NCBI RefSeq assembly: GCF_022919155.1
Contig: NZ_CP095045.1
Location: 2,232,001-2,296,000 of the forward strand
Direction of reading: 5' to 3'
DNA: 64,000 nucleotides
Origin: Leucobacter allii
GTDB lineage: Bacteria; Actinomycetota; Actinomycetes; Actinomycetales; Microbacteriaceae
Shown: in pieces, positions 5,567 to 54,798 of the stretch
Numbering within the stretch: the stretch's first letter is position 1
How the letters are laid out: the number at the start of each line of letters is the position of its first letter
The notes under the pieces: generated by a model
The model's database searches: none
What the model was told of the DNA's origin: nothing
What the model saw: only the letters and a program-made list of their open reading frames with translations
Position numbers and translations under genes: made by a program

Positions 5567-7192
5567 CTACTTCTTGACGACCAGCTGCTCCTGCTTGATC
5601 TCGGCCTCGTCGAGCGCATCGAACTGCTCGCTCAGGCTCTGACCGGCGGACGTGCGGAACTCCGACTTGAAGGTCGCGATCTTCGCCTCGAGCTCGGCGA
5701 CCGTGTCGTCGTCGAGGACGTTGGTCGCGCGGAGCGTGTTCAGCGCCTCGGAGTTGCGGCCGAGGTAGTCGAGGAACTCGCGCTCGAAGCGGAGGATGTC
5801 CTCGACCGGCACCTCGTCGAGGTGCCCCTTCGTGCCGGCCCAGATCGACACCGTCTGCTCCTCGACCGGGTACGGGGTGTACTGCGGCTGCTTGAGGAGC
5901 TCGGTGAGGCGGGCGCCGCGCTCGAGCTGCTTGCGGCTGGCCGCGTCGAGGTCGGACGCGAACATCGCGAACGCCTCGAGGGCGCGGTACTGCGCGAGCT
6001 CCAGCTTGAGCGTGCCGGAAACCTTCTTGATCGACTTCACCTGCGCGTCGCCGCCCACGCGGGACACCGAGATGCCCACGTCGACCGCGGGCCGCTGGTT
6101 CGCGTTGAAGAGGTCCGACTGGAGGAAGATCTGGCCGTCGGTGATCGAGATCACGTTCGTGGGGATGTACGCCGAGACGTCGTTCGCCTTCGTCTCGATG
6201 ATGGGCAGGCCCGTCATCGAACCGGCGCCGAGCTCGTCGGACAGCTTCGCGCAGCGCTCCAGCAGGCGGGAGTGCAGGTAGAAGACGTCGCCCGGGTAGG
6301 CCTCGCGCCCCGGCGGACGGCGCAGCAGCAGCGACACGGCGCGGTAGGCCTCGGCCTGCTTCGACAGATCGTCGAAGATGATGAGGACGTGCTTGCCGCC
6401 GTACATCCAGTGCTGGCCGATCGCCGAACCGGTGTAGGGGGCCAGGTACTTGAAGCCGGCGGGGTCGGAGGCCGGGGACGCGACGATCGTCGTGTACTCC
6501 ATGGCTCCGGCGTCCTCGAGCGCGCCCTTCACCGAGGCGATGGTCGAGCCCTTCTGGCCGATCGCCACGTAGATGCAGCGCACCTGCTTCGAGACGTCGC
6601 CCGACTCCCAGTTGGCCTTCTGGTTGATGATCGTGTCGATCGCGATCGCGGTCTTGCCCGTCTGGCGGTCGCCGATGATGAGCTGGCGCTGGCCGCGGCC
6701 GACGGGGATCATGGCGTCGATCGCCTTGATGCCGGTCTGCATGGGCTCGTGCACCGACTTGCGCTGCATGACGCCGGGCGCCTGGAGCTCGAGCGCGCGG
6801 CGGCCCTCGACGCCGGCGATCTCGCCGAGGCCGTCGATCGGGTTGCCGAGCGGGTCGACCACGCGGCCGAGGTAGCCCTCGCCCACCGGCACGGAGAGCA
6901 CCTCGCCGGTGCGGGTGACCTGCTGGCCCTCCTCGATACCGGTGAACTCGCCGAGCACGACGACGCCGATCTCGTCCTCCTCGAGGTTCTGCGCGAGGCC
7001 GAGCGTGCCGTCCGCGAAGCGGACGAGCTCGTTCGCCATGACGCCGGGGAGGCCGGCGACGTGGGCGATGCCGTCCGCGGCGTCGACCACCGTTCCGACC
7101 TCGGTCTTCTCCGCCTGGGCCGGCTCGTACGACGCTGCGAAGTCTTTCAGCGCGTCGCGGATCTCGTCCGGGCTGATTGAGAGTTCTGCCAT
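5567..7192 (-). CDS. atpA: ATP synthase F1 alpha subunit
   Basis: The 541-residue non-catalytic nucleotide-binding subunit of F1. The P-loop [13 protein letters not shown] lies near residue 170, and the C-terminal part carries [12 protein letters not shown], typical of alpha subunits. The N-terminal segment [14 protein letters not shown] contacts the delta subunit in the peripheral stalk. It is 54 bp downstream of atpH and in normal operon order. Length is typical for actinobacteria. Confidence 0.98.
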
Positions 7193-14242: not shown

Positions 14243-14292
14243 GTCCGGGGCGCGGGCGCGCCGTGCGCTGCGGTTCCGCCCGCGCCCCGGAC
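14243..14292 (+). terminator. Perfect 16 bp hairpin between cysK and cysE
   Basis: Arms 14243-14258 and 14277-14292 are perfect complements around an 18 nt loop, 16 bp after the cysK stop. It could terminate or attenuate transcription into cysE, or protect the 3' end of a cysK-only transcript. There is no T tract. Confidence 0.6.
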
Positions 14293-14367: not shown

Positions 14368-14936
14368 GTGAGCCTCTTCTCCCGCATCCGCGAGGACATC
14401 GCGGCCGCGCGCGCCACCGACCCGGCGGCGCGCGGCGGCGTATCGGTGTTCCTCATCTATTCGGGCCTGCACGCCGTGTGGTGGCATCGGGTGTCGCACG
14501 CGATGTGGGCGCGCGGCATGCGCTTCCTCCCCCGCGCGCTGTCGCAGCTCGTCCGCTTCGGCACCGGGATCGAGATCCACCCCGGCGCCACCATCGGGCG
14601 ACGGCTCTTCATCGACCACGGCATGGGCGTCGTCATCGGCGAGACCGCGGTCATCGGCGACGACGTGCTCATCTACCACGGGGTCACCCTCGGGGCACGG
14701 GGCACCAGGGCGGCAAGCGCCACCCGACGATCGGGGACCGCGTCGTCATCGGCGCGGGGGCGAAGCTCCTCGGCGGCATCGAACTCGGCCACGACTGCGC
14801 GGTCGGCTCGAACGCCGTCGTCGTGCGCTCAGCCGAACCGTGGACCACGCTCACCGGCATCCCCGCGCAGGGCCGGCCGCGTCGCGGCGCCCCGGTCGCC
14901 GAGCAGCCGGACATGGCCGACTTCTACGTGATCTGA
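14368..14936 (+). pseudogene. cysE: Serine O-acetyltransferase, frameshifted
   Basis: This enzyme acetylates L-serine to O-acetylserine, the CysK substrate. The GTG start at 14368 has GAGAGGAAC upstream and gives [11 protein letters not shown]. Frame 1 carries the left-handed beta-helix through [10 protein letters not shown]; frame 3 then continues with [20 protein letters not shown] to the end. The break is in the G run 14692-14695 (CGGGGCAC), where the family needs five G. One added G gives a 189-residue intact enzyme. Since cysK is intact and in tandem, a base-calling error is more likely than loss. Confidence 0.88.
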
Positions 14937-41171: not shown

Positions 41172-41348
41172 TCAGGGGGCCGGTTCGGCGCCGCGATCCG
41201 CGTGCCGCCCGGCATCCGCGTAGACGCGCCCATCCGCGCGCGCATGGTACTCGCAGTCCTCGCACTGCCACCCGTCGCGGACCGGCCACATCACCGTGAT
41301 CCGGCACCTGGGACAGGTCGGCAACTCTCCCGGTTCCTCGACCCCCAT
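41172..41348 (-). CDS. Small zinc-ribbon protein
   Basis: A 58-residue protein with two CxxC knuckles, CPRC at residues 12-15 and CEDC near 28-31, the spacing of a rubredoxin-like zinc ribbon. The Trp and Arg rich hinge (MWPVRDGWQCEDCEYHARADG) recalls zinc-ribbon domains that bind nucleic acid or proteins. I do not recognise a named family. It is converging on the HxlR gene with a 30 bp gap. GGGGAGG lies 13 nt upstream of the ATG. Confidence 0.65.
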   Translation of the reverse strand: MGVEEPGELPTCPRCRITVMWPVRDGWQCEDCEYHARADGRVYADAGRHADRGAEPAP

Positions 41349-41422
41349 CGGTCCATTCTGCGCCTCCCCGGCGAGGATATCCAGCGTTTTCTGAACGCTA
41401 TGCGCTCCCCCTGCACGGAGGG

Positions 41423-41623
41423 TCACTGCTCGGAGCCGTCGCCCGTCCGTTCGCCGTCGTCGGCCTTGCCCGCGCCGAGCAGCAGGCCGACGACGACGCC
41501 GACCGCGATCCCGACGCCGATCCACAGGCCCACGTTGCCGGTCGCGACGCCGAGCGCCGTGCCGATCGCCGCTCCGAGCGCGATGCCGACGCCGATGCTC
41601 GCCCCCTGCTTCCGTCCTGCCAT
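41423..41623 (-). CDS. Small glycine-zipper membrane protein
   Basis: A 66-residue protein with two membrane helices built on GxxxG spacing: SIGVGIALGAAIGTALGVAT and GLWIGVGIAVGVVVGLLLGAG, with a charged tail ADDGERTGDGSEQ. Such Gly-zipper proteins pack tightly in membranes, and no function is known for this one. The ATG has TAGCCT 6 nt upstream. It lies 17 bp downstream of the NiaP-like gene on the same strand. Confidence 0.7.
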   Translation of the reverse strand: MAGRKQGASIGVGIALGAAIGTALGVATGNVGLWIGVGIAVGVVVGLLLGAGKADDGERTGDGSEQ

Positions 41624-41629
41624 GCCTCC

Positions 41630-41635
41630 AGGCTA
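41630..41635 (-). promoter_or_regulatory. -10-like TAGCCT, leaderless glycine-zipper gene
   Basis: TAGCCT on the minus strand, 6 nt before the ATG of the 66-residue protein. Confidence 0.45.
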
Positions 41636-41640
41636 GCGCC

Positions 41641-43060
41641 TCAGCGGTCGTCGAGCGTCTCGCCCCGACGATCGACGAGCCCCCAGGCCGCGCCCCCGCG
41701 AGCAGGAAGAAGATCGCGAAGACCCCGAAGGTGAGGCCGGATCCCCCCGCGGCGAGGAGCACCGGGACGAGGAGCGGCGCCGCGATCGACGCGATGCGCC
41801 CGACTCCCGCCGCCCAGCCCGCGCCCGTCGCACGCAGCGAGGTGGGGTAGATCTCGGGCGTCACCGCGTAGAGGGCGCCCCAGGCGCCGAGGTTGAAGAA
41901 CGAGAGCGCCATGCCCGAGGCGATGATCGCCGCCTCGGCGTGCACCGTACCGAAGACGATCGCGGAGACCGCCGAGCCCAGCAGGAAGACCGAGAGGGTG
42001 AGCCGCCTCCCCCAGCGCTCGATGAGCCACGCCGCGACGGCGTAGCCGGGGAGCTGGGCGAGCGTGATGATGAGGGTGAAGCCGAAGGAGCGCACGAGGC
42101 TGAATCCCGCGTCCACGAGGATGCTCGGGATCCAGATGAACGCGCCGTAGTACGCGAAGTTCACGCAGAACCAGACCACCCAGATCGCGACCGTCCGCCC
42201 GCGGAACTCGGCGGTCCAGAGCCCCGCCAGGCGACTCCCGGCCGAGGCGGCGAGCGGCGCCGCGGCGGCGGCATCGGGCGCCGCGGTGGATGCCGCGGCG
42301 GACTCGGTCGCCGCGGCGGACTCGGTCGCCGCGGCGCCTTCGCGCACGGCCCCTCGCTCACCGTGCGCCCGCCGGCCGCGGCCTCGAACTCCGAGACGAT
42401 CCGCTCGGCCTCCGCGGTGCGTCCGCGCCCCGCGAGCCAGCGCGGCGACTCGGGGAGCCCCCAGCGCACCACGAGCGCGTACACGGCGGGGACGGCGCCG
42501 AGCGCGAAGGCCCAGCGCCAGCCGTCCGCCGAGGCCGGCACGACGAAGTAGCCGATCACGGCCGAGGCCGTCCAGCCGACCGCCCAGAACGCCTCGAGGA
42601 TGACGATGAGCCGACCTCGGATGCGCGCCGGTGCGAACTCGCTCACGTAGGTCGAGGCGACCGGCAGCTCGGCCCCCAGACCGAGACCCACGAAGAAGCG
42701 GAGCACGAGCAGCACGGCGACGCCGCCGGCGAGCGCGCTCGCCCCGGTCGCGAGCCCGTACACGAGCAGCGTGATCGCGAAGACCTGCCGGCGGCCGAAG
42801 CGATCGGCGAGCAGGCCGCCGAGGCTCGCGCCGATCGCCATGCCGGCGAAGCCGATCGAGGCGATGAGCCCGCTCTCCCCCTTGTCGAGCCCCCACTGCT
42901 GCGTCAGCGCGGCGATGATGAAGGAGATGAGCCCGACGTCCATCGCGTCGAGCGCCCAGCCGACTCCGGAGCCGGTGAGCAGTCTGCCGTGCTTCCTGGT
43001 GAAGGGCAGGGCGTCGAGTCGCTGCGCGAGCGAGCGCCGGCCCGCAGATGTTCCGGTCAT
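41641..43060 (-). pseudogene. NiaP-like MFS transporter, two frameshifts
   Basis: Major facilitator resembling Bacillus NiaP (nicotinate import): GWALDAMDVGLISFIIAAL in helix 1, GLLADRFGRRQV, and ELPVASTYVSEFAPARIRGR. The coding frame shifts twice. The first is at the C run 42350-42353 (coding GAGGGGCC), entering the Ala/Glu linker ATESAAATESAAAST; the second at 41693-41697, giving AAWGLVDRRGETLDDR at the C-terminus. Each is cured by one added G in the run, yielding 473 residues with about twelve helices. The linker holds two exact 18 bp direct copies. Substrate by similarity only. Confidence 0.82.
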
Positions 43061-43087: not shown

Positions 43088-43465
43088 TCAGAGCTCGGCC
43101 CCGTTGTCGGCGGCGTACTGCTCTGCGCTCAGCAGCGGCCCCTCCTCGCTCACGGCGACCCTGATGAGCCAGGCGGCGCCGTAGGGATCGCTGTTGATGA
43201 GCGCCGGGTCGTCGACGACGGCGGCGTTCACCTCGACGACCTCCCCGGCGACCGGTGAGAAGAGCTCGGAGACGGACTTCGTGGACTCTACCTCGCCGAT
43301 GACGGAGCCGACGGCGACGGTCGCACCGAGCTCGGGCAGATCGACGTAGACGATCTCGCCGAGCGCATCGGCGGCGACCTCGCTGATGCCGATCGTCGCG
43401 GGGCTGCCGGCGTCGATCCACTCGTGCTCGGCGGAGTAGCGGAGGCCTGACTTGACGGTGCTCAT
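43088..43465 (-). CDS. gcvH: Glycine cleavage system H protein
   Basis: A 125-residue lipoyl carrier that shuttles the aminomethyl arm between P, T and L proteins. The lipoylated Lys is in EVESTKSVSELFSPVAG, the exact family signature; the C-terminal acidic end is also typical. It is the last gene of gcvPTH, 100 bp after gcvT. The L protein (lpd) and a lipoylation enzyme are not in the window. Confidence 0.96.
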   Translation of the reverse strand: MSTVKSGLRYSAEHEWIDAGSPATIGISEVAADALGEIVYVDLPELGATVAVGSVIGEVESTKSVSELFSPVAGEVVEVNAAVVDDPALINSDPYGAAWLIRVAVSEEGPLLSAEQYAADNGAEL

Positions 43466-43565
43466 GAGGGGTTCCTTACGGTGTTCGGTGGTCGGTACGG
43501 ATCAGAAGCGGTCGGAGCGGATCGCGCCGACGCCGGTGCGGTTCGTGCGCCGTCTCGCGGCGCGC

Positions 43566-44693
43566 TCACCCGCCGCGCCGGTAGAAGGGCAGGGGGACGA
43601 CGATGAAGGGCTCGCGCTTGCCGCGGAGGTCGACCTCGACGCGGGTGCCCGGCTCGGCCGACGCGGGATCGAGATAGGCGAGCGCGATGGGGGCGCCGAG
43701 CGTGGGACTCGGCTGCCCGCTCGTGATGCGGCCGATCGCCGCCGCCTCGACCCCGGACCCTGCGGCGTGCACCGCGTAGCCCTCGCGCCCCGCGCGCCGT
43801 CCCTCGCCCCGCAGCCCGACGAGCGTCAGGCCGGGGGGTGCGTCGCGACGGCGCTCGAGCGCGTCGCGCCCGACGAAGCGCTCGGGCTTCGCGAAGGAGA
43901 CGACGGGGGCGAGACCCGCGTCGAAGGGGGTGAGCTCGAGGCTGAGCTCGTGCCCGTAGAGCGGCATCCCGGCTTCGAGCCGCAGGGAGTCGCGCGCGGC
44001 GAGTCCGGCCGGCACGAGGCCCTGCGGCCCGCCCGCGGCGAGGAGGGCGCGCCAGAGCTCCGCGGCCCGCGCGTTCGGCACGTAGAGCTCGAACCCGTCC
44101 TCGCCCGTGTACCCGGTGCGGGCGAGGAGCACGGGCACGCCGGCGACCGCGAGCTGCGCCGCGGCGTAGTACCGCAGGCCGGCGACGGCCTCCCGATCCT
44201 GTTCGGGCAGGAGCCCGTCGAGGATCGCGGCCGAGGCCGGGCCCTGCACGGCGATGAGGCTCGTCTCCGCGGTCTCGTCGGCGACACGGACCTCGAAGCC
44301 GTCGGCGCGCTCCGCGAGGGCCGCCGCGACGGTCCCGGCGTTGCCCGCGTTCGGCACGACGAGGAACTCCGCGTCCCCGAGCCGGTAGACGATGAGGTCG
44401 TCGATGATCCCGCCGTCCTCCGCGCAGATCAGCGAGTATTTCGCGCGGCCCACGGCGACCCTCGCGAGGTCCCCCACGAGTGCGCTGTTGAGGAAGACGG
44501 CGGCGTCGGCTCCGGTGACGCGCAGCTCCCCCATATGGGAGAGGTCAAAGAGCCCGGCCGCCTCACGGACGGCGCGGTGCTCGGCGAGCTCGGAGCCGTA
44601 CCGCAGCGGCATCTCCCAGCCGCCGAAGTCGGTCAAGGTCGCGCCGAGCGCGTCGTGCTCGGCGCCGAGCGCGGTGCGCCTGGGGTCGCTCAT
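43566..44693 (-). CDS. gcvT: Aminomethyltransferase (glycine cleavage T protein)
   Basis: A 375-residue tetrahydrofolate-dependent enzyme that takes the aminomethyl group from H protein, releasing ammonia and forming methylene-THF. Visible motifs: FGGWEMPLRYGSELAEHRAV, LFDLSHMGELRVTG and ARTGYTGEDGFELYVPN. The ATG at 44693 gives the family N-terminus; the open frame upstream is a low-complexity Asp/Pro/Ser stretch between gcvP and gcvT made of short imperfect repeats. Confidence 0.95.
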   Translation of the reverse strand: MSDPRRTALGAEHDALGATLTDFGGWEMPLRYGSELAEHRAVREAAGLFDLSHMGELRVTGADAAVFLNSALVGDLARVAVGRAKYSLICAEDGGIIDDLIVYRLGDAEFLVVPNAGNAGTVAAALAERADGFEVRVADETAETSLIAVQGPASAAILDGLLPEQDREAVAGLRYYAAAQLAVAGVPVLLARTGYTGEDGFELYVPNARAAELWRALLAAGGPQGLVPAGLAARDSLRLEAGMPLYGHELSLELTPFDAGLAPVVSFAKPERFVGRDALERRRDAPPGLTLVGLRGEGRRAGREGYAVHAAGSGVEAAAIGRITSGQPSPTLGAPIALAYLDPASAEPGTRVEVDLRGKREPFIVVPLPFYRRGG

Positions 44694-44787
44694 GGTGTCC
44701 TGCTCTCGTCGGTCGGTGTCGTCGGGGTCGGGTGTGCGGGAGTCGGATTCGTCGGGGTGGGATTCGCGGGGGTCGCGGCTCGGCAGG

Positions 44788-47628
44788 TCATGCGAAGGCC
44801 TCGGGCGGCGGGCAGGAGCAGACGAGGTTGCGATCGCCGTGCGCACCGTCGATCCGCCCCACCGGCGGGAAGTACTTGTCGGCGCGGAGCGAGGCGACCG
44901 GGTACGCGGCCCGCTCGCGGGTGTATGCCCGGTCCCAGTCCGCGTCGAGCAGCGCTTCGGCCGTGTGCGGGGCGAGCCGCAGCGGCGAGTCGCCGAGGGG
45001 GCAGCGGCCCTCGGCGACGTCCGCGATCTCGCCGCGGATCGCGATCATGGCCGCGATGAAGCGCTCGATCTCGCCGAGGTCCTCGGACTCCGTGGGCTCG
45101 ACCATGAGCGTCCCGGCGACGGGGAAGGCGAGCGTCGGCGCGTGGAAGCCGAAGTCGATGAGGCGCTTCGCGACGTCCTCGGCGGTGACGCCCGAACGCG
45201 CGGTGAGCTCGCGGAGGTCGAGGATGCACTCGTGCGCGACGAGGCCGGACTCCCCCGTGAAGAGCACGGGGAAGTGCTCGGCGAGCCTCGCGGCGATGTA
45301 GTTCGCGCTGAGGAGCGCCGTCCGCGTCGCCCGCGCGAGCCCCTCGGCTCCCATGAGCGCGATGTACGCGTAGGAGATCGGGAGGACCCCGGCGGAGCCG
45401 AAGATCGTCGCGACGACCGCCGCGCCGCCCGTCGCTCCCCCGCCGCGCGGATCGCCGGGGAGGAACGGGAGCAGGTGCTCGGCGACCCCGATGGGGCCGA
45501 CGCCCGGGCCGCCGCCGCCGTGCGGGATCGCGAAGGTCTTGTGCAGGTTGAGGTGCGACACGTCGCCGCCGAAGCGCCCGGGCTGCGCGATGCCGACGAG
45601 GGCGTTCATGTTGGCGCCGTCGATGTAGACCTGTCCGCCGGCGGCGTGGACGAGCCCGCACACCTCGTGCACGTCCGTGTCGTAGACGCCGTAGGTGGAG
45701 GGGTAGGTGATCATGATCGCGGCGAGCTGGTCGCGATGCGCCTCGACCTTCGCGCGCAGATCGTCGAGGTCGATGTGCCCGGAGTCGGTGTTCCGCACGA
45801 CGACGACGCGCATCCCGGCGAGCACGGCGGAGGCCGCGTTCGTGCCGTGCGCCGAGGCGGGGATGAGGCAGACCGTGCGGTCCGCCTCGCCCCGTGAGCG
45901 GTGGTAGCCGCGGATGGCGAGGAGGCCGGCGAGCTCGCCCTGCGCGCCCGAGTTCGGCTGCAGCGACATGCCGGCGTACCCGGTGATGGCGACCAGTCGG
46001 CGCTCGAGCTCCGCGATGAGCTCGCGCCAGCCGACGGTCTGCTCGGCGGGCGCGTACGGGTGGATGCCCGCGAACTCCGGCCAGGAGATGGCCTCCATCT
46101 CGGCGGTCGCGTTGAGCTTCATCGTGCAGGATCCGAGCGGGATCATCGTGCGGTCGAGCGCGAGGTCGCGGTCCGCGAGGCGGCGCAGGTACCGCAGCAT
46201 CTGGGTCTCGGAGCGCACGGTGGCGAAGATCGGGTGGCTGAGGTAGTCGCTCGTGCGGGCGAGCGCCGGCGGGAACGCGGCGCCCGGCGCCGGCGCGCTC
46301 GGCTCGGCGGCGCCGAAGGCGCGCGCCACGGCGGCGATGTGCGCGGCCGTCGTGGTCTCGTCGGTCGAGACGCCGACCGTGCCCGCATCGATGCGGCGCA
46401 GGTTGATCCCGGCCGCGGCCGCGGCCGCGATCACCGCGTCGGCGCGGCCGGGGACCTCGGCGACGACCGTGTCGAAGAACGAGGCCGAGGCGAGCGGGAT
46501 CCCCGCGGCGGCGAGCGCCGCGGCGAGCGCCCTCGCGTGCGCGTGCACGCGCTCGGCGATGGCCCGGAGCCCCTCGGGGCCGTGGTACACGGCGTACATC
46601 GACGCCGTGATGGCGAGCAGCGCCTGCGCGGTGCAGATGTTGCTCGTCGCCTTCTCCCTGCGGATGTGCTGCTCGCGGGTCTGCAGCGCGAGCCGATAGG
46701 CCTGTCGGCCCGCGGCGTCCCTGGACACGCCGACGAGGCGGCCGGGGAGCGAGCGCTCGAGCCCGGCGCGGACCGCGAGGTACGCCGCGTGGGGGCCGCC
46801 GAAGAAGAGCGGCACGCCGAAGCGCTGGGTGCTGCCCACGGCGACGTCGGCGCCCTGCTCGCCCGGCGGCACGATGAGGGTGAGGGAGAGCAGATCGGCG
46901 ATCACGGTCACCATCGCGCCGCGCTCCCGCGCCGCGGCGATCGTCGCCGCGTGGTCGACGACGGCGCCGCGGTCGCCCGGCTGCTGCAGCACGATGCCGA
47001 AGAGCTCCCCCTCGGGCAGCCCGGCGCCGAGGTCGGCGACCTCGACCTCGAAGCCAAGCGCCTCGGCGCGGCCCCGGATCACGGCGATGGTCTGCGGGAA
47101 GAGCGCGGCGTCGAGCACGGCCTTCGCGGTGGGCGACGCCTTGCCGGCGCGGCGCATGAGGAGCACGGCCTCGGCGGCCGCGGAGCTCTCGTCGAGCATC
47201 GAGGCGTTCGCCACGGGCAGCGCCGTGAGGTCGGAGACCATCGTCTGGAAGTTCAGGAGCGCCTCGAGGCGTCCCTGCGAGATCTCCGGCTGGTACGGCG
47301 TGTACGCGGTGTACCAGGCGGGGCTCTCGAGGACGTTCCGACGGATCACCGGGGGCGTGTGCGTGTCCGAGAAGCCCTGCCCGATCATCTGGACCATCGG
47401 GGTGTTCTTCGCCGCGAAGCCGCGGAGCTCGGCGAGGATCTGCTCCTCGCCGACGCCGGCGGGGAGGTCGAGCGGACCGTCCATGCGGATGGCGCTCGGG
47501 ACCGCGGCGTCGACGAGTTCGTCGAGCTCGGCGTAGCCGAGGCGGTCGAGCATGGCCCGCACATCGGCGGGGGCGGTCACGCCGATGTGCCGGTCGGCGA
47601 AGGCGCTGGCTGGAGGGGTGGGGCTCAC
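44788..47628 (-). CDS. gcvP: Glycine dehydrogenase (decarboxylating), P protein
   Basis: A 946-residue PLP enzyme that decarboxylates glycine and loads H protein. The PLP lysine is in [18 protein letters not shown] in the second half; the first half holds the homologous inactive domain with [20 protein letters not shown]. The GTG at 47628 has GGAG 7 nt upstream and gives the normal N-terminus ([10 protein letters not shown]); earlier in-frame codons lie in the riboswitch leader. It is the first gene of gcvPTH, under a tandem glycine riboswitch. Confidence 0.95.
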
Positions 47629-47680
47629 GAGGATCTCCGAGGGGACGTCGTGCGGGGCACGAAGCGGACGAGAGGATCCT

Positions 47681-47875
47681 CCCCGCTCTGTGATGGGTAC
47701 CTGAGAGATTCGGATGCGCCCGCCCGGGCGGGCGCATCCTTGCACCGTCGGTGAGCCGGCGCTCGCGCGCCTGCCGCTTTCCAGAGTCGCCGTGTCGTGA
47801 CGGTACGGGGGCCTGAGAGATTCCCGGGGAGGGGTTGCTCCTACGGCGCCGGGCGCTCGGCCCGGGCTCTCCCGC
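47681..47875 (-). promoter_or_regulatory. Tandem glycine riboswitch
   Basis: On the minus strand both aptamers are complete: GGGAGAG start, GGCGCCGTAGGAGCAA, AATCTCTCAGGCCCC, GTACCG, then TCTGGAAAG linking to CACCGACGGTGCAA and AATCTCTCAGGTACCC, ending ACAGAGCGGGG. Aptamer 2 carries a perfect 28 bp palindrome (47712-47739) as an extended stem between its conserved blocks. Glycine binding normally turns such genes on. The start of gcvP is about 52 nt further down, without a clear intrinsic terminator, so control of translation or of Rho access is possible. Confidence 0.96.
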
Positions 47876-47920
47876 CATGACGTGATGGCCGGTATTCAGA
47901 TGTGCTGCTGCGGTCTCACT

Positions 47921-49495
47921 CTACACGGCGCGCGGCCGATCGGGATCGCCGGCGGCGTCCGTGCCGTCGAGCGCCAGGAGCTCCTCCTCGACCTCCCCGC
48001 CGTAGCCTTCGCGCTGCGGGTCGCCGTGGAGCCCGCCCGAGACCGCGTACTCCTCCTCGGGCGAGAGGATGAGGCGGTGGCGGGTGTAGAGCCCGAAGAT
48101 GAGCAGGCCGACGACGTAGACCACCACGATCGCCACGATGGCCGGACGGAAGGTCTCGTTGAGCAGGAAGCCGAGGAAGATGAGCGCCGAGATCACGGCC
48201 GCCGCCGCGGCGCCGAACACGCCCCAGGGGCTGCGATACGGTCGCTTCGCATCGGGGTACTTGCGGCGCAGGATGATGAAGGACAGCATCTGCATGAAGT
48301 AGGCGAGCACGGCGCCCCACACGGCGATGTTCAGGACGACGGCGCCGCCGACGCCGCTGTCGCCGCCCGTGAGCTCCACGATGACGAGCGCGGCGAGGCC
48401 GATGATCGCCCCGGCGATGAGCGCGACCCAGGGGGTCTGGCGCGAGCCCGTGAGCGAGAGGAACTTGGGGTAGTAGCCCGCGCGGGAGAGGGAGTAGAGG
48501 TTGCGCCCGTAGGCGAACATGATTCCCTGCAGCGAAGCGAGCAGGCCGAACAGCGCGAAGAGGGCGAGGAGACCGGCGACCCAGGCGAGATCGTCGCCGA
48601 GGATCGCGCGGAAGCCGTCGAGGAGCGGCTCCCCCGCGACACCCGTGGCCTCGGCGCCGAGCACGGCGGTGTTGAGCAGGAGCACGAGGAGGCCGGTGAC
48701 GATGAGGGTGCCGCGGGCCCAGAGGCCGGCGCGCGGGATGTCGCGGACGGGATCGTGCGACTCCTCCGCAGCGAGGGGCAGCTCCTCGATGCCGAGGAAG
48801 AGCCACATGGCGAAGGGCAGCGCGAAGAGGATCGGCAGCACGCCGTGCGGCAGGAAGGCGGACTGCCCGGGGTCGGGCGCGATGTCGAGGAGGCTCCCCC
48901 AGTTCACGGTGCCGCTCGCGAACGCCATGACGGCGAAGAGCACGAGCACGCCGATCGAGACGAAGGAGACGACGATCGCGAACTTGAGCGAGATGGCCGC
49001 GCCCGCCGTGTTGAGCGCCACGAAGGCGGCGTAGAGGATGATCCACCACACCCAGTTCGGCAGGCTGAACCCCATGAGCCCCTCCGTGACGCCGTTGGCG
49101 TAGCCCGCGGAGAAGTAGACGATGACCGCGGTCGTCGCGACGTACTCGATGGATTCCGCGAGCCCCGTCACGAAGCCGCCCCACGGCCCCATCGCCGCGC
49201 GGCCGAAGGAGTAGGCCCCTCCCGTGTGCGGCATGGCTGCGGCCATCTCGCCGATGGAGAAGACGAGGCCGTAGTACATGACCACGAGGATGGCGAAGGC
49301 GATGAGCATGCCGCCGAAGCCGGCCGCCTCGATGCCGAAGTTCCATCCGGAGAAGTTGCCGGAGATCACGGCCCCGACGGCGAGGCCCCAGAGCCCCCAG
49401 ACGCCGGCGGCGCGCTTGAGCTTGCGCTTCTCGAAGTACCCGGATTCCGCGGTGGTGTACGTCACCCCGGAGACTCTCAACGTGTCCTTGGCCAT
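47921..49495 (-). CDS. APC family permease, ethanolamine permease-like
   Basis: A 524-residue permease with about twelve helices. The start of the transport core, GLAVGAVISGNFSGWNFGIE, and MPHTGGAYSFGRAAMGPWGG are typical of ethanolamine permeases of the APC superfamily, which in actinobacteria sit next to gamma-glutamylethanolamide synthetases. I chose the ATG at 49495 because GAAAGGGG lies upstream; a GTG 15 bp earlier overlaps that site. It is divergent from the glutamine synthetase-like gene and reads towards gcvPTH, with its stop 46 bp from the riboswitch. Confidence 0.83.
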   Translation of the reverse strand: MAKDTLRVSGVTYTTAESGYFEKRKLKRAAGVWGLWGLAVGAVISGNFSGWNFGIEAAGFGGMLIAFAILVVMYYGLVFSIGEMAAAMPHTGGAYSFGRAAMGPWGGFVTGLAESIEYVATTAVIVYFSAGYANGVTEGLMGFSLPNWVWWIILYAAFVALNTAGAAISLKFAIVVSFVSIGVLVLFAVMAFASGTVNWGSLLDIAPDPGQSAFLPHGVLPILFALPFAMWLFLGIEELPLAAEESHDPVRDIPRAGLWARGTLIVTGLLVLLLNTAVLGAEATGVAGEPLLDGFRAILGDDLAWVAGLLALFALFGLLASLQGIMFAYGRNLYSLSRAGYYPKFLSLTGSRQTPWVALIAGAIIGLAALVIVELTGGDSGVGGAVVLNIAVWGAVLAYFMQMLSFIILRRKYPDAKRPYRSPWGVFGAAAAAVISALIFLGFLLNETFRPAIVAIVVVYVVGLLIFGLYTRHRLILSPEEEYAVSGGLHGDPQREGYGGEVEEELLALDGTDAAGDPDRPRAV

Positions 49496-49586
49496 CTCGG
49501 CCCCTTTCACTGCGGTGTGATCGGTGCGCGTCGTGCGTCGTCGACGCTGCGGTGGTGCGATGTCGAGACCGACTATAGCGATCTAT

Positions 49587-49599
49587 TGGTCGTTTACCA
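49587..49599. promoter_or_regulatory. TGGT-N5-ACCA palindrome, candidate GntR operator
   Basis: TGGTCGTTTACCA in the divergent region, next to TATAGT (49572-49577, minus strand), a possible -10 for the permease gene. FadR-type GntR proteins often bind TGGT-N-ACCA sites. The match to the cluster's regulator is inference. Confidence 0.5.
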
Positions 49600-49648
49600 C
49601 CACCTTTATGTAAATTCTTCCGCGCGATCACCGAGGGGGACGTGCTTT

Positions 49649-49670
49649 AATGGTCGAGCGATCGACCATT
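49649..49670. promoter_or_regulatory. Perfect 22 bp palindrome, candidate GntR operator
   Basis: Arms AATGGTCGA (49649-49657) and TCGACCATT (49662-49670) around GCGA, 39 bp ahead of the glutamine synthetase-like ATG. It shares TGGTC/GACCA half sites with the palindrome 50 bp upstream and fits the TGGT-N-ACCA class bound by FadR-type GntR regulators such as the one encoded at 54061. Confidence 0.65.
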
Positions 49671-49709
49671 GACGTGACACCCGGTCTCGACGACGAGCAA
49701 GGAGCCCAC

Positions 49710-51080
49710 ATGATCCCGAACAGCGGCAACCTCACCCCGGACGAGCTGAGGCGGGCCGTCGCCGCGGGCGAGATCGACACCGTGATCGTCGCGTTCACCG
49801 ACGTGCAGGGTCGGCTGGTCGGCAAGCGCATCTCCGCGAGGCTCTTCCTCGAGGACGCCATGGAGCACGGCTCGGAGTGCTGCAACTACCTCCTCGCCGT
49901 CGACGTCGAGCTCAACACGGTCGACGGCTACGCGCTCACCAGCTGGGAGAGCGGCTACGGCGACATGGCGATGATCCCGGATCTCGGGACGCTCCGCCTC
50001 GCCCCCTGGCTCCCGGGCACCGCGCTCGTCATCGCCGACCTCACGACTGCCGCCGACCACGCCCCCATCGCCGTCTCCCCCAGGCAGATCCTGAGGCGCC
50101 AGGTGGAGCGGCTCGCCGAGCGCGACCTCGTGCCCTTCGTCGGCACCGAGCTCGAGTTCATCGTCTTCGAGGACGACTTCCGCTCCGCGTGGCGCAAGGG
50201 CTACCGCGACCTCACCCCGGGCAGCGACTACAACGTCGACTACGCCCTCCACGCCTCGACGCGGATGGAGCCGCTGCTGCGCGACATCCGCAATTCCATG
50301 GACGGCGCCGGCATGTACTGCGAGGGCGTGAAGGGCGAGTGCAATCTCGGCCAGCAGGAGATCGCCTTCCGCTACGCCCACGCGATCACCACCTGCGACA
50401 ACCATTCCATCTACAAGAGCGGCTCCAAGGAGATCGCCGACGCGCACGGCAAGAGCCTCACCTTCATGGCGAAGTTCAACGAGCGCGAGGGCAACAGCTG
50501 CCACGTGCACACGAGCCTGCGCAGCGCCGCGGGCGCACCCGTCTTCGCCGACGCCGACGCGCCGGACGGCATGTCCCCGCTGTTCCGCAGCTTCGTCGCC
50601 GGCCAGCTCGCCGCCATGCGCGAGTTCACGCTCCTCTTCGCCCCGAACATCAACTCCTACAAGCGCTACGTCGACGGCAGCTTCGCGCCGACGGCCGTCG
50701 CCTGGGGGCACGACAACCGCACCTGCGCGCTGCGCGTCGTCGGCCGGGGGCACGCCATGCGGGTCGAGAACCGCGTGCCGGGCGGCGATGTGAACCAGTA
50801 CCTCGCGGTCGCGGGCATGCTCGCCGCCGGGCTCGACGGCATCGAGCGCGGGCTCGCACTCGGCGAGCCGCTCGCGGGCAACGCCTACGACAGCGACATC
50901 GCCCGCGTGCCCACCACCCTCCGCGAGGCCGCGGACCTGTTCGAGCGCTCGGAGCTCGCCCGACGGGCCTTCGGCGACGAGGTGGTCGAGCACTACGTGC
51001 ACGCCGCGCGGATCGAGGTCGCCGCCTTCGACGCCGCCGTCACCGACTGGGAGCGCGTGCGCGGCTTCGAACGACTCTGA
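49710..51080 (+). CDS. Glutamine synthetase-like gamma-glutamyl-amine ligase
   Basis: A 456-residue member of the glutamine synthetase superfamily that would join glutamate to an amine with ATP. Core motifs are TELEFIVFED (metal and glutamate site), VKGECNLGQQEIAFRYAHA, EGNSCHVHTSL and ENRVPGGDVNQYLAVAGM. The neighbours (permease, C26 hydrolase, aldehyde dehydrogenase) match gamma-glutamylation pathways, so the acceptor is an amine such as ethanolamine or a polyamine rather than ammonia. The ATG at 49710 has AAGGAG upstream. Confidence 0.9.
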   Translation: MIPNSGNLTPDELRRAVAAGEIDTVIVAFTDVQGRLVGKRISARLFLEDAMEHGSECCNYLLAVDVELNTVDGYALTSWESGYGDMAMIPDLGTLRLAPWLPGTALVIADLTTAADHAPIAVSPRQILRRQVERLAERDLVPFVGTELEFIVFEDDFRSAWRKGYRDLTPGSDYNVDYALHASTRMEPLLRDIRNSMDGAGMYCEGVKGECNLGQQEIAFRYAHAITTCDNHSIYKSGSKEIADAHGKSLTFMAKFNEREGNSCHVHTSLRSAAGAPVFADADAPDGMSPLFRSFVAGQLAAMREFTLLFAPNINSYKRYVDGSFAPTAVAWGHDNRTCALRVVGRGHAMRVENRVPGGDVNQYLAVAGMLAAGLDGIERGLALGEPLAGNAYDSDIARVPTTLREAADLFERSELARRAFGDEVVEHYVHAARIEVAAFDAAVTDWERVRGFERL

Positions 51081-51111
51081 CCCCCCTCCCCCACGAGCAC
51101 CAGGAGCCGCC

Positions 51112-51879
51112 ATGGATCCCGCGCCGATCATCGGCATCACGAGCTACCTCGAGCAGGCCCGGACCGGGGTCTGGGACGTCCGCGCATCCTTCCTCCCCGA
51201 GGTCTACCTGCGCGGCGTCACCGACGCCGGCGGCATCGCCGTCGTCCTCCCGCCGCAGCCGGTCGCCCCCGGCGTCGCCGAGGCGATCGTCGGGGCGCTC
51301 GACGGGCTCGTGCTCTCCGGGGGCGCCGACGTGGATCCCGCGCGCTACGGGCAGCGGCCGCACGAGCGCACCGGGGCGCCGCGCACCGATCGGGACGAGT
51401 TCGAGGCCGCGGTGCTGCAGGCGGCGATCGACATCGAACTCCCCTTCCTCGGGATCTGCCGCGGCGCGCAGGTGCTCAACGTCGAGCGCGGCGGCACGCT
51501 CACCCAGCATCTGCCCGACCTCGTGGGCGACGACCGCTACCAGCTCGGCGCCGGCCGCTTCAACCGCATCGAGGTAGAGGTCGACCCGGGCAGCAGGATC
51601 GGAGGCCTCTTCGGCGACGAACCGCGGGCCGTCGCCGACCTCTACCATCATCAGGGGATCGACCGCGTCGGCGACGGCCTCACCGTCACCAGCCGCACCG
51701 CGGACGGCGTGATCGAGTCCCTCGAACTCGACGCGGTGCCCTTCGGCATCGCGGTCCAGTGGCACCCCGAGGAGAACGCGGCGGATCGCCGCCTCTTCGC
51801 AGGCCTCGTCCGCGCCGCCCGCGCCCACCGGCGGTCCCGCACCGGCGCGCCAGCGCCCCGAGCGTCAGGAGCATCATGA
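51112..51879 (+). CDS. Gamma-glutamyl-amine hydrolase (peptidase C26, PuuD-like)
   Basis: A 255-residue class I amidotransferase-fold hydrolase that splits a gamma-glutamyl amide into glutamate and the free amine or amino acid. The nucleophile Cys is in FLGICRGAQVLNV, and the His-Glu pair is in AVQWHPEENA; LVLSGGADVDPARYG is the oxyanion strand. Length equals PuuD. The stop overlaps the next ATG (ATGA), so it is translationally coupled to the aldehyde dehydrogenase. Confidence 0.92.
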   Translation: MDPAPIIGITSYLEQARTGVWDVRASFLPEVYLRGVTDAGGIAVVLPPQPVAPGVAEAIVGALDGLVLSGGADVDPARYGQRPHERTGAPRTDRDEFEAAVLQAAIDIELPFLGICRGAQVLNVERGGTLTQHLPDLVGDDRYQLGAGRFNRIEVEVDPGSRIGGLFGDEPRAVADLYHHQGIDRVGDGLTVTSRTADGVIESLELDAVPFGIAVQWHPEENAADRRLFAGLVRAARAHRRSRTGAPAPRASGAS

Positions 51880-53231
51880 GCTACACCGTCATCAACCCGG
51901 CCGACGGGACCGTCGTCCGCGAGGTCGCCCACCTCGACCTCGCGGACACGGACGCCGCGATCGCGCGCGCCGCGACCGCGCAGCGAACGTGGGCGCGGCT
52001 CGCGCCCGCCGACCGCGCACGGTCGCTCCGCCGCTTCGCGGACGCCGTCGACGGCGATCTCGAGCACCTCGCCGGGCTCGAGACGGCGAACTCGGGGCAC
52101 CCGATCACGCAGTCGCGCTGGGAGGCCGGGCACGTGCGCGACGTGCTCGAGTACTACGCGGGATCGCCCGAGCGGCTCATCGGCCAGCAGATCCCCGTCG
52201 CGGGCGGACTCGACGTGACCTTCCACGAGCCGCTCGGCGTCGTGGGGGTCATCACGCCGTGGAACTTCCCCATGACGATCGCCTCCTGGGGCTTCGCACC
52301 GGCCCTCGCCGCCGGGAACGCCGTGCTCCTGAAGCCGGCGGAGTGGACGCCCCTCACGAGCATCCGCCTCGGCGAGCTCGCGCTCGAGGCCGGCCTCCCC
52401 GAGGGGCTCTTCCAGGTCCTCCCCGGTCGCGGCTCCGTCGTCGGCGACCGCTTCGTCACCCATCCGGAGGTGCGCAAGGTGGTCTTCACCGGCTCGACCG
52501 CCGTCGGCAAGCGGATCATGGCCGGCTGCGCCGAGCAGGTGAAGCGCGTCACCCTGGAGCTCGGCGGCAAGAGCGCGAACATCGTCTTCGCCGACGCAGA
52601 CATCGAGCAGGCCGCCGCGACCGCGCCCTACTCGGTCTTCGACAACGCCGGGCAGGACTGCTGCGCGCGGAGCCGGCTGCTCGTGCAGCGCAGCGTCTAC
52701 GACCGCTTCATGGAGGGCTTCGAGCGGGCGGTGCAGGGCGTGCGGGTCGGCGACCCGACGGACGAGTCGACCGAGGTCGGCCCGCTCGTCACGCTCGCCC
52801 ACCGCGAGAGCGTCGCGGCCTTCCTCACCGAGGACGTGCCCGTCGCCTTCCGCGGCACCGCGCCCGAGGGGCCGGGCGCCTGGTTCGCGCCGACCGTCGT
52901 GACGCCGGAACGCGGATCGCGGATCGCCACCGAGGAGGTCTTCGGCCCCGTCGTGGCCGTGCTCCCCTTCGAGGACGAGGCCGATGCGATCGCGCTCGCG
53001 AACGCGACCGACTACGGCCTGAGCGGCTCGATCTGGACGCGCGACCTCGCGCGCGGCATCCGCGTCGCCCGCGGCGTCGAGGGCGGCAATCTGTCCGTCA
53101 ACTCCCACTCCTCCGTCCGGTACACCACCCCGTTCGGCGGGTTCAAGCAGTCCGGCATCGGCCGAGAGCTCGGCCCCGACGCCCCGCTCCACTTCACCGA
53201 GACGAAGAACGTCTTCTTCGCCGCCGAGTAA
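51876..53231 (+). CDS. Aldehyde dehydrogenase (PuuC/GabD-type)
   Basis: A 451-residue NAD(P)-dependent aldehyde dehydrogenase. The general base Glu is in VTLELGGKSANIV, the catalytic Cys in NAGQDCCARSR, and PWNFPM marks the cofactor site. It is slightly shorter than typical members (about 475-490) at the N-terminus but all active-site parts are present. The ATG at 51876 overlaps the upstream stop; a longer frame upstream is shadow. Proposed substrate is a gamma-glutamyl aminoaldehyde. Confidence 0.9.
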   Translation: MSYTVINPADGTVVREVAHLDLADTDAAIARAATAQRTWARLAPADRARSLRRFADAVDGDLEHLAGLETANSGHPITQSRWEAGHVRDVLEYYAGSPERLIGQQIPVAGGLDVTFHEPLGVVGVITPWNFPMTIASWGFAPALAAGNAVLLKPAEWTPLTSIRLGELALEAGLPEGLFQVLPGRGSVVGDRFVTHPEVRKVVFTGSTAVGKRIMAGCAEQVKRVTLELGGKSANIVFADADIEQAAATAPYSVFDNAGQDCCARSRLLVQRSVYDRFMEGFERAVQGVRVGDPTDESTEVGPLVTLAHRESVAAFLTEDVPVAFRGTAPEGPGAWFAPTVVTPERGSRIATEEVFGPVVAVLPFEDEADAIALANATDYGLSGSIWTRDLARGIRVARGVEGGNLSVNSHSSVRYTTPFGGFKQSGIGRELGPDAPLHFTETKNVFFAAE

Positions 53232-53259
53232 CCCGCAGCCCCGAATCCGAAGGAACCCC

Positions 53260-54051
53260 ATGAACGATATCGCCCCCATCGACCTCACCCAGCGGCTCGC
53301 CGGAAAGGTCGCCGTCATCACCGGCGGCGGCAGCGGCATCGGCCTCGCCACCGCCAGGCGCATGCGCGCCGAGGGCGCCACGATCGTCATCGGCGACATG
53401 GACCCCGCGAGCGGGCAGGCGGCGGCCGATGCGGTCGACGGCCGCTTCGTGCGGGTCGACGTCACCGACGAGACGCAGGTGAACCACCTCTTCGACACGG
53501 CGGCCGAGGCCTTCGGGTCGGTCGACATCGCCTTCAACAACGCCGGCATCTCCCCCGACGACGACGACTCGATCGAGGTCACCGAGCTTCCCGCCTGGGA
53601 GAAGGTGCAGGACGTGAATCTCAAGAGCGTGTACCTCTGCTCGCGGGCGGCGCTGCGGCACATGACGCGGCAGGGCTCGGGCTCCATCATCAACACCGCC
53701 TCCTTCGTGGCCGTGATGGGCTCGGCGACCTCGCAGATCTCCTACACGGCCTCGAAGGGCGGCGTGCTCGCGATGACCCGGGAGCTCGGCGTGCAGTTCG
53801 CCCGCCAGGGCATCCGGGTGAACGCCCTCTGCCCCGGACCGGTGAACACGCCGCTGCTGCAGGAGCTCTTCGCGAAGGACCCCGAGCGCGCCGCCCGGCG
53901 CCTCGTGCACATCCCCGTCGGCCGCTTCGCGCGGCCGGAGGAGCTCGCGGCCTCCGTCGCCTTCCTCGCGAGCGACGACGCATCCTTCATCACGGCCGCC
54001 ACCTTCCTCGTCGACGGCGGCCTCACGAGCGCCTACACGACGCCGGTCTGA
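53260..54051 (+). CDS. Short-chain dehydrogenase/reductase
   Basis: A 263-residue classical SDR. TGGGSGIGLATAR binds the cofactor, NNAGI follows, the catalytic Ser is in NTASFVAVMGSAT and the YxxxK pair is YTASKGG. In this cluster it most likely oxidises an alcohol of a gamma-glutamylated intermediate, replacing the flavin oxidase PuuB of the putrescine pathway. It lies 28 bp after the aldehyde dehydrogenase gene. Confidence 0.9.
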   Translation: MNDIAPIDLTQRLAGKVAVITGGGSGIGLATARRMRAEGATIVIGDMDPASGQAAADAVDGRFVRVDVTDETQVNHLFDTAAEAFGSVDIAFNNAGISPDDDDSIEVTELPAWEKVQDVNLKSVYLCSRAALRHMTRQGSGSIINTASFVAVMGSATSQISYTASKGGVLAMTRELGVQFARQGIRVNALCPGPVNTPLLQELFAKDPERAARRLVHIPVGRFARPEELAASVAFLASDDASFITAATFLVDGGLTSAYTTPV

Positions 54052-54060
54052 GGCGCCGAC

Positions 54061-54798
54061 GTGACCGCCTCTGCTGAGGGCCTCGAACTCCTCGTCCGGG
54101 CCGTCCGCCCGACGAACGCCTACGAGGAGACCATGCAGCGCCTCCTGCAGTCCGTCCGCCTCGGCCTCATCTCCCCCGGGGAGCGGCTGCCGGCCGAGCG
54201 CGAGCTCGCCGGCATGCTCAAGGTGAGCCGCGACACCGTGCGCGACGCCCTCGCGACGCTCGGCGAGGCGGGCTTCGTCGTGTCCCGGAGGGGCCGCTAC
54301 GGCGGCACCTTCGTCGTGGACGAGCTCCCCACCGGCTCCCCGGCGGCGGCCCTCGGGGCCGGCGGCTCCGAGCCCGGCTCCGCGGAGGTCGAGGACACGA
54401 CGACGCTGCGACGCGTCCTCGAGGTGGGGGCGGCGCGGGAGGCCGCCGCGCGCGAGCTCAGCGCCGAGGAGCGGGCCGCGCTCGCGCGCGCGCTGGAGGA
54501 CTGCGCCGGATCGGACGACGCGAGCCATCGGCGGCTGGACTCCCGGCTGCACCTGCTCATCGCCGAGCTCTCCGGATCCCCGAGCCTCGTCCCCCTGGTC
54601 GCGAACCTCCGCACCCGCGTGAACGCGCTCCTCGACGCGATCCCGATGCTCCGCCCGAACCTCGCGCACTCGGACGCGCAGCACGAGGCCGTCGTGACGG
54701 CGATCCTCGCCGGGCGCCCGCAATCGGCGGCAGAGGCGATGCTCGAGCACATCGAGGGCTCAGCGGCCCTGCTGCGCGGATTCCTCTCCGAGCGCTGA
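54061..54798 (+). CDS. GntR/FadR family regulator
   Basis: A 245-residue regulator. The N-terminal winged helix has ISPGERLPAERELAGMLKVS followed by RDTVRDALATLGEAGFV, and the C-terminal all-helical FCD domain has the His/Asp ligand pattern (LDSRLHLLIAEL, then HSDAQHEAVVTAI). The GTG start is 9 bp after the SDR stop, so it is the last gene of the catabolic operon and likely its regulator. Its 3' end overlaps the convergent sensor kinase gene by 39 bp. Confidence 0.9.
   Translation: MTASAEGLELLVRAVRPTNAYEETMQRLLQSVRLGLISPGERLPAERELAGMLKVSRDTVRDALATLGEAGFVVSRRGRYGGTFVVDELPTGSPAAALGAGGSEPGSAEVEDTTTLRRVLEVGAAREAAARELSAEERAALARALEDCAGSDDASHRRLDSRLHLLIAELSGSPSLVPLVANLRTRVNALLDAIPMLRPNLAHSDAQHEAVVTAILAGRPQSAAEAMLEHIEGSAALLRGFLSER

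Follow-up and report, generated by a model that had tools for sequence, protein, structure and literature searches.

GlnA4 of Streptomyces has been shown experimentally to be a gamma-glutamylethanolamide synthetase, and the same work (PMC6529630, published in 2019) proposed that dehydrogenase, aldehyde dehydrogenase and amidohydrolase steps follow and convert ethanolamine to glycine and glutamate. An ethanolamine-to-glycine route was also proposed for Phaeobacter, where the proteins of a comparable operon were more abundant on phosphorylethanolamine (PMC10132767), and the pathway was restated in a 2022 review (PMC9397018). Glycine riboswitches were reported as activators of the glycine cleavage (gcv) genes in Streptomyces griseus (Tezuka and Ohnishi 2014). 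Here, we analysed a stretch of 64,000 nucleotides (the window) from the Leucobacter allii genome (NZ_CP095045.1, positions 2,232,001 to 2,296,000), in which a divergent gene cluster around a glutamine-synthetase-like ligase adjoins gcvPTH. It is quite likely that this is a GlnA4-type ethanolamine-to-glycine cluster joined to a glycine cleavage operon, with the glycine sensed by a riboswitch.

The gcv genes lie on the minus strand: gcvP (glycine dehydrogenase, 44788-47628, GTG start; TIGR00461 1274 bits, cut-off 859.2), gcvT (aminomethyltransferase, 43566-44696; TIGR00528 325.3 bits, cut-off 235.85) and gcvH (lipoyl carrier, 43088-43465; TIGR00527 128.4 bits, cut-off 115.85). They are preceded on the same strand by two glycine riboswitch aptamers, covariance-model matches that both exceed the RF00504 gathering score of 32 bits: aptamer 1 at 47791-47884 (60.7 bits) and the weak aptamer 2 at 47686-47786, which does so only barely (32.4 bits; 37.9 bits in another search). 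Aptamer 1 starts 36 nt past the stop of the permease gene of the cluster, in the same orientation, and gcvP, gcvT and gcvH then follow. The initial annotation had placed a tandem glycine riboswitch behind the permease stop, which is correct, but at a distance of 46 bp, which is not; all of the genes that it had assigned to one divergent cluster and to gcvPTH were found in their places by profile matches. Scanning 47560-48100 for promoters and terminators gave no hits. A pairing between the gcvP ribosome-binding site and the aptamer core, seen in the window fold behind aptamer 2, was dropped: it is absent from the folds of three relatives (L038, L039 and L044), and the folds behind aptamer 2 disagree among the window and these relatives.

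The ligase gene (PF00120) is on the plus strand. Its open reading frame was listed from 49650, and the ATG at 49710, with AAGGAG upstream, is the likelier start (49710-51080). Among 20 loci tried, both S. coelicolor glnA4 reverse-transcription primers (sequences from PMC6529630) matched with 0 mismatches within the ligase gene of two Streptomyces-type loci (L157 and L160), at a spacing of 240 bp, and the Streptomyces-type ligase gene is therefore glnA4. In genome G271, the gene carrying both exact primer matches was also the single ligase match at E <= 1e-90. The window ligase is 64-65% identical to the two primer-matched ligases and 61-66% identical to the Streptomyces-type ligases as a group (family code f5; one second copy at 44% was excluded), and the f5 rows are intermixed with named Streptomyces loci on the ligase tree. 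Judged by these sequence comparisons, the window ligase is orthologous to GlnA4 of Streptomyces, and it is probably a gamma-glutamylethanolamide synthetase of the GlnA4 type.

The ligase scores below every listed NCBIfam cut-off, and far below those of the PuuA, GlnA and type III models. The PuuA result bears on the idea that the cluster encodes a Puu-type putrescine pathway in which the short-chain dehydrogenase (SDR) replaces PuuB. The C26 gamma-glutamyl hydrolase and the aldehyde dehydrogenase (ALDH) of the cluster do hit the models for PuuD and PuuC, respectively, without reaching either cut-off, and PuuD is among the PDB entries related to the C26 enzyme. However, the ligase reaches only 204.7 bits with the gamma-glutamylputrescine synthetase (PuuA) model NF045547, whose cut-off is 650; neither a flavin oxidase (PuuB), as the initial annotation had remarked, nor another amine oxidase was found among the cluster genes; and oxidation of the second amine is not a reaction expected of an SDR. 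We rejected the Puu pathway, which is highly improbable. The Eut pathway was rejected as well, since neither EutB (PF06751) nor the microcompartment shell protein BMC (PF00936) had a match in the whole genome of the window (0 matches each; E. coli controls positive), and the earlier statement that no microcompartment is involved thus agrees with the genome.

Some other ligases deserve mention. L155 (genome G409) has a second GlnA4-like copy (65%) with none of the other cluster genes around it. Three gammaproteobacterial ligases from Nitrococcus (L193, L194 and L204) are 70-72% identical to the Rubrobacter-type query, which suggests transfer between phyla. In three Pseudonocardia loci (L202, L203 and L219) and one of Solirubrobacterales (L218), the ligase and C26 genes occur with no ALDH match and adjoin a divergent, weakly gcvT-like gene (31-38% identity); these clusters possibly serve a related pathway for another amine.

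The ligase was present at E <= 1e-100 in 111 of 249 genomes of the window's family (Microbacteriaceae), and 100 of the 110 other neighbourhoods were compared. A phylum-wide sample had the ligase in 103 of 396 genomes, with 40 neighbourhoods compared outside the window's family, and a named scan contributed 80 loci, which are best matches to a Rubrobacter-type ligase and not an even sample. A usable ligase was present in 219 loci, 36 of which were left undecided (one flank shorter than 3 kb). A locus was scored as linked when gcv genes lay within the cluster or next to it. L225, whose compared stretch ends at its riboswitch, was scored unlinked, and the gcvT-like opposite-strand matches (31-38% identity) in L202, L203, L218, L219 and L243 were excluded from the gcv counts. 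Family labels partly overlap, for example f18 and Rubrobacteraceae; the Rubrobacteraceae locus L186 shares its contig coordinates with an f18 locus (G525).

Thirty of the decided loci were linked and 153 were not, that is 31 linked among 184 with the window included. The link was found in the window's family (3 of 85 decided loci, window uncounted) and in four other groups, namely Rubrobacteraceae, Amycolatopsis/Prauserella, Streptosporangiaceae and the lineage of L183 (f53). Linked loci made up 8 of 21 in Pseudonocardiaceae, 11 of 13 in Streptosporangiaceae, 6 of 8 in f18, 1 of 1 in both the named Rubrobacteraceae and f53, and 0 in the remaining families. An adjacency unique to the window genome, which the initial annotation had named as a result that would speak against its proposal, was thus rejected by the gene-neighbourhood comparison.

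The arrangement differs from group to group. Six of the ten f18 loci carry, on one strand, permease, ligase, C26, ALDH, SDR, a cysteine-synthase-like gene, the riboswitch and gcvPA. In three of them (L169, L173 and L178) gcvPA stands directly after the riboswitch and is followed by gcvPB, gcvT and gcvH; in the other three (L175, L176 and L181) 2-5 kb intervene and the compared stretch ends within the gcv genes. Two further f18 loci are cut short (L172 and L177) and two have no gcv there (L179 and L180). In L183, gcvT, gcvPA and gcvPB lie between SDR and C26. In eight Amycolatopsis/Prauserella loci gcvP and gcvT lie behind the SDR (259-406 nt from SDR to gcvP in four of them), with a gcvH hit too in six of the eight. 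In eleven Streptosporangiaceae loci gcvT lies behind C26, or behind the SDR in L249, with 257-472 nt before it in seven loci; ten of the eleven also have gcvH and the L-serine dehydratase gene sdaA. NCBIfam cut-offs were passed by gcvP in L208 and by gcvT in L207. The cysteine-synthase-like gene, which encodes a PLP enzyme (TIGR01136 275 bits, cut-off 344), lies between SDR and riboswitch in L169, L173, L178 and other Rubrobacteraceae.

On the ligase tree (119 rows, quick method, with 65 of the 82 unlinked loci of the window's family left out), linked rows occupy five separated places, in three of which unlinked rows are nested, and the linked or unlinked state needs at least 11 changes. L183 sits on a long branch and its place is unsure. 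The joining of the cluster to gcv appears, from these gene orders and the tree, to have arisen several times in actinobacteria, and this repetition suggests that cluster and glycine cleavage are one working pathway. The reason may be that genes disposing of glycine then adjoin the genes making it.

A glycine riboswitch recurs at the junction. Of the 31 linked loci, 29 have RF00504 between cluster and gcv. By group, it was present in all 4 of the window's family, all 7 of Rubrobacteraceae/f18, all 8 of Amycolatopsis/Prauserella and 10 of the 11 of Streptosporangiaceae, and it was not found in L183. In L222, for example, C26 ends near 14276, the aptamers cover 14515-14613 and 14614-14708, and gcvT starts near 14748. 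A model made from 20 aptamers, of which 19 came from such junctions, matched 29 of 220 loci, comprising 28 linked loci and L225; no other unlinked locus among the 220 gave a match.

Several observations weigh against a functional link. In the window's own family, gcvP is near the cluster in only 3 of the 100 other neighbourhoods (L038, L039 and L044), and a wide spread of the adjacency in that family was rejected. About 5 kb lie between permease and gcvP in L038; the gcv copy beside the cluster of L044 (genome G121) has no gcvT hit; and L040, of the same genus as the window, has the cluster without adjoining gcv, its gcvP being elsewhere in the genome. Outside the family, the gap from SDR to gcvP is 1.0-2.5 kb in 4 of the 8 Amycolatopsis/Prauserella loci, that before gcvT is 1.2-6.1 kb in 4 of the 11 Streptosporangiaceae loci, and 2-5 kb intervene in several Rubrobacteraceae loci. 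Thirteen of the 21 decided Pseudonocardiaceae loci have no gcv beside the ligase; in the named scan, Streptomyces, Kribbella and Nocardia loci carry the ligase and no gcv genes were found; and L183 and L249, although linked, showed no RF00504 at the junction. The rarity in the family would favour a real ethanolamine cluster that in the window came to lie beside gcv by accident, the gene order having no meaning for function. The gcv genes with a riboswitch of their own are, moreover, a normal unit: 212 of the family's 249 genomes contain RF00504, for the most part with no link to the cluster. The window-type gcvP with the riboswitch directly in front is found in a few genera of the family, and in other genera compared by eye (e.g. 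G003, G052, G058 and G245) about 1.7 kb separate the riboswitch from the gcvP behind it. An accident is nevertheless at odds with the five separated places on the tree and the different types of gcv genes found there. Random placement, with 8 kb allowed on each side and a genome of 3 Mb, would give 0.11 linked families over 21 labels, or 0.45 when counted over 85 genera, whereas five groups were seen; this estimate is crude, as its reference is random placement and not real genes, and some of the labels overlap. We therefore regard an accident as rather unlikely. The initial proposal, which led from ethanolamine through glycine to gcv, is supported in part: the ligase is a GlnA4 ortholog far below the PuuA cut-off, while the link to gcv is rare in its own family.

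In L044, other genes stand between permease and ligase. Of the two gcvP copies in its genome, the one adjoining the permease precedes gcvH, after which a serine hydroxymethyltransferase gene begins (NF000586, fragment).

The cluster itself is conserved. With 50% identity or more as the threshold for conserved gene order, the six-gene divergent order was complete and in the same orientation in 84 of the 100 family neighbourhoods, and ligase, C26, ALDH and SDR were kept together in 92; since the gene order recurs in the family, the cluster is more than a chance grouping. Solved structures are available among sequence relatives (11zs and 5dm3).

The recurrence also bears on the substrate. Specificity cannot be read from sequence and the ligase reaches none of the listed NCBIfam cut-offs, so the true substrate might be another amino alcohol or amine (3-aminopropanol, N-methylethanolamine, 1-amino-2-propanol or putrescine) and the product something other than glycine. 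Against this stands the repeated presence of the glycine riboswitch and gcv beside the cluster, which fits glycine as the product; in addition, 1-amino-2-propanol would by chemical reasoning yield a ketone, and the ALDH would then have no substrate. We give a different substrate a slim chance.

The remaining genes of the cluster fit the assignment of an ethanolamine-to-glycine pathway. The permease is on the minus strand, and the ligase, C26, ALDH, SDR and regulator genes are on the plus strand. The permease (47921-49510) belongs to the APC family (PF00324/PF13520); its best family is the ethanolamine permease TIGR00908 (327.7 bits, under the cut-off of 381.75), and it is probably an ethanolamine importer. 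In L039 and L112 the ethanolamine permease matches come in two adjoining pieces, as if frameshifted. The C26 enzyme (51112-51879; PF07722 195.5 bits) is probably a gamma-glutamylglycine hydrolase. The start of the ALDH gene (51876-53231; PF00171 514.3 bits; conserved gene order) overlaps the C26 stop by 4 nt, and the product is probably a gamma-glutamylaminoacetaldehyde dehydrogenase. The SDR (53260-54051), which has a counterpart gene in the Streptomyces GlnA4 cluster, meets the model NF004713/PRK06057 (488.4 bits, cut-off 404), named 3-oxoacyl-ACP reductase. It is probably a gamma-glutamylethanolamide dehydrogenase, and gene context suggests that the reductase name is wrong for such proteins and that the NF004713 family includes this dehydrogenase. 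The last gene (54061-54798; PF00392, PF07729) encodes a GntR/FCD regulator, probably the repressor of the divergent cluster. A perfect palindrome, TGGTCGA-GCGA-TCGACCA, lies in front of the ligase (49651-49668) and is a candidate GntR site; weaker versions occur in some relatives. Of 93 intergenic regions, among them that of the window, 23 contain TGGT-N(3-12)-ACCA, compared to a mean of 2.65 in letter shuffles.

According to the proposed scheme, the permease would import ethanolamine and the ligase would glutamylate it, the step demonstrated in Streptomyces. SDR and then ALDH would convert the alcohol to the aldehyde and the acid, and the C26 enzyme would split gamma-glutamylglycine into glycine and glutamate. 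Glycine would bind the tandem riboswitch before gcvPTH and raise its expression, glycine cleavage would give methylene-THF, CO2 and NH3, and serine hydroxymethyltransferase and serine dehydratase (sdaA) would lead onward to serine and pyruvate.

The positions of sdaA fit such a flow from glycine through serine to pyruvate. The gene adjoins gcvH in L039, of the same genus as the window, stands behind gcvT in L236, and follows gcvH in the ten Streptosporangiaceae loci. In L095, L096, L106 and L131 it lies 78-97 nt past the permease (measured between match ends), with no gcv. The four sdaA copies checked are all over the TIGR00720 cut-off. The genome of the window (one contig, 3.56 Mb) has sdaA apart from the cluster (TIGR00720 549.9 bits, cut-off 345.1), directly behind a second tandem RF00504 pair at 2536881-2537088. 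In L095, L096, L106 and L131, sdaA (at about 5940-7190 with the ligase on the plus strand) fills the slot that gcvP has in the window, and no riboswitch match was found there.

There is about an even chance that cluster and gcv form a composite unit from ethanolamine through glycine to C1 units and pyruvate, with the junction riboswitch as an internal product sensor, and that selection assembled it repeatedly from different gcv sets. If so, the product of the first half would be the ligand that opens the second. Sixteen genomes were searched for gcvP. In four Amycolatopsis/Prauserella genomes (G640, G641, G643 and G646) the single gcvP at E <= 1e-100 is the cluster copy (L208, L216, L226 and L236); two copies were present in four other genomes and one in each of eight Streptosporangiaceae. 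With a composite unit, breakdown of lipid head groups and the cell's glycine cleavage would share one locus in those four Amycolatopsis/Prauserella genomes. Membrane lipids are the probable source of the ethanolamine.

Downstream of gcvH, a gene for an MFS transporter (41172-43060, minus strand) seems to be broken between two reading frames where the sequence is GC-rich, through a frameshift or a sequencing error.

The novelty of the locus is confined to its junction. The initial annotation had not known of the linkage as described, and this holds for gcv; the ethanolamine-to-glycine route itself had already been proposed in Streptomyces and Phaeobacter. In titles and abstract openings of the open-licence PMC literature, we found no report tying glycine cleavage or its riboswitch to ethanolamine glutamylation. 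The main text of PMC10132767 lacks the terms 'gcv' and 'glycine cleavage', that of the glycine-riboswitch context study PMC6944388 lacks 'ethanolamine', and the passages of PMC12674515 and PMC11477304 in which 'glycine riboswitch' and 'ethanolamine' occur do not tie the two together; PMC3488411 also contains both terms. The steps after the ligase in the GlnA4 pathway rest on prediction in PMC6529630 and the related articles, and the repeated joining with gcv, glycine riboswitches and sdaA provides independent genomic evidence for glycine as the product. It also suggests a fate for the carbon, C1 units and pyruvate without a microcompartment.

The closest known system is SCO1611-SCO1615 of S. 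coelicolor (PMC6529630), with orthologous ligase, SDR, ALDH, amidotransferase and regulator and with glycine and glutamate as proposed products; other Streptomyces also have the permease. The Streptomyces-type loci examined differ in gene order and have neither gcv nor a glycine riboswitch near the cluster. The operon of Phaeobacter sp. MED193 and Chromohalobacter salexigens (PMC10132767, PMC9397018) shares the ligase, two dehydrogenases and a hydrolase, but has a TRAP transporter instead of the APC permease of the window, and in C. salexigens the alcohol dehydrogenase is of PF00465 and the hydrolase of PF05013. The Eut ethanolamine ammonia-lyase microcompartment has the same substrate, with EutB and BMC unmatched in the window genome. 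The known control of gcv by RF00504 (PMC6944388) resembles the window in its tandem aptamers before gcv; the switch of the window differs in sitting between an ethanolamine cluster and gcv, where it is placed as a possible product sensor between the two halves of the pathway. What is new is only the link to gcv, in which a pathway and a riboswitch-operon, both known before, have been brought together repeatedly.

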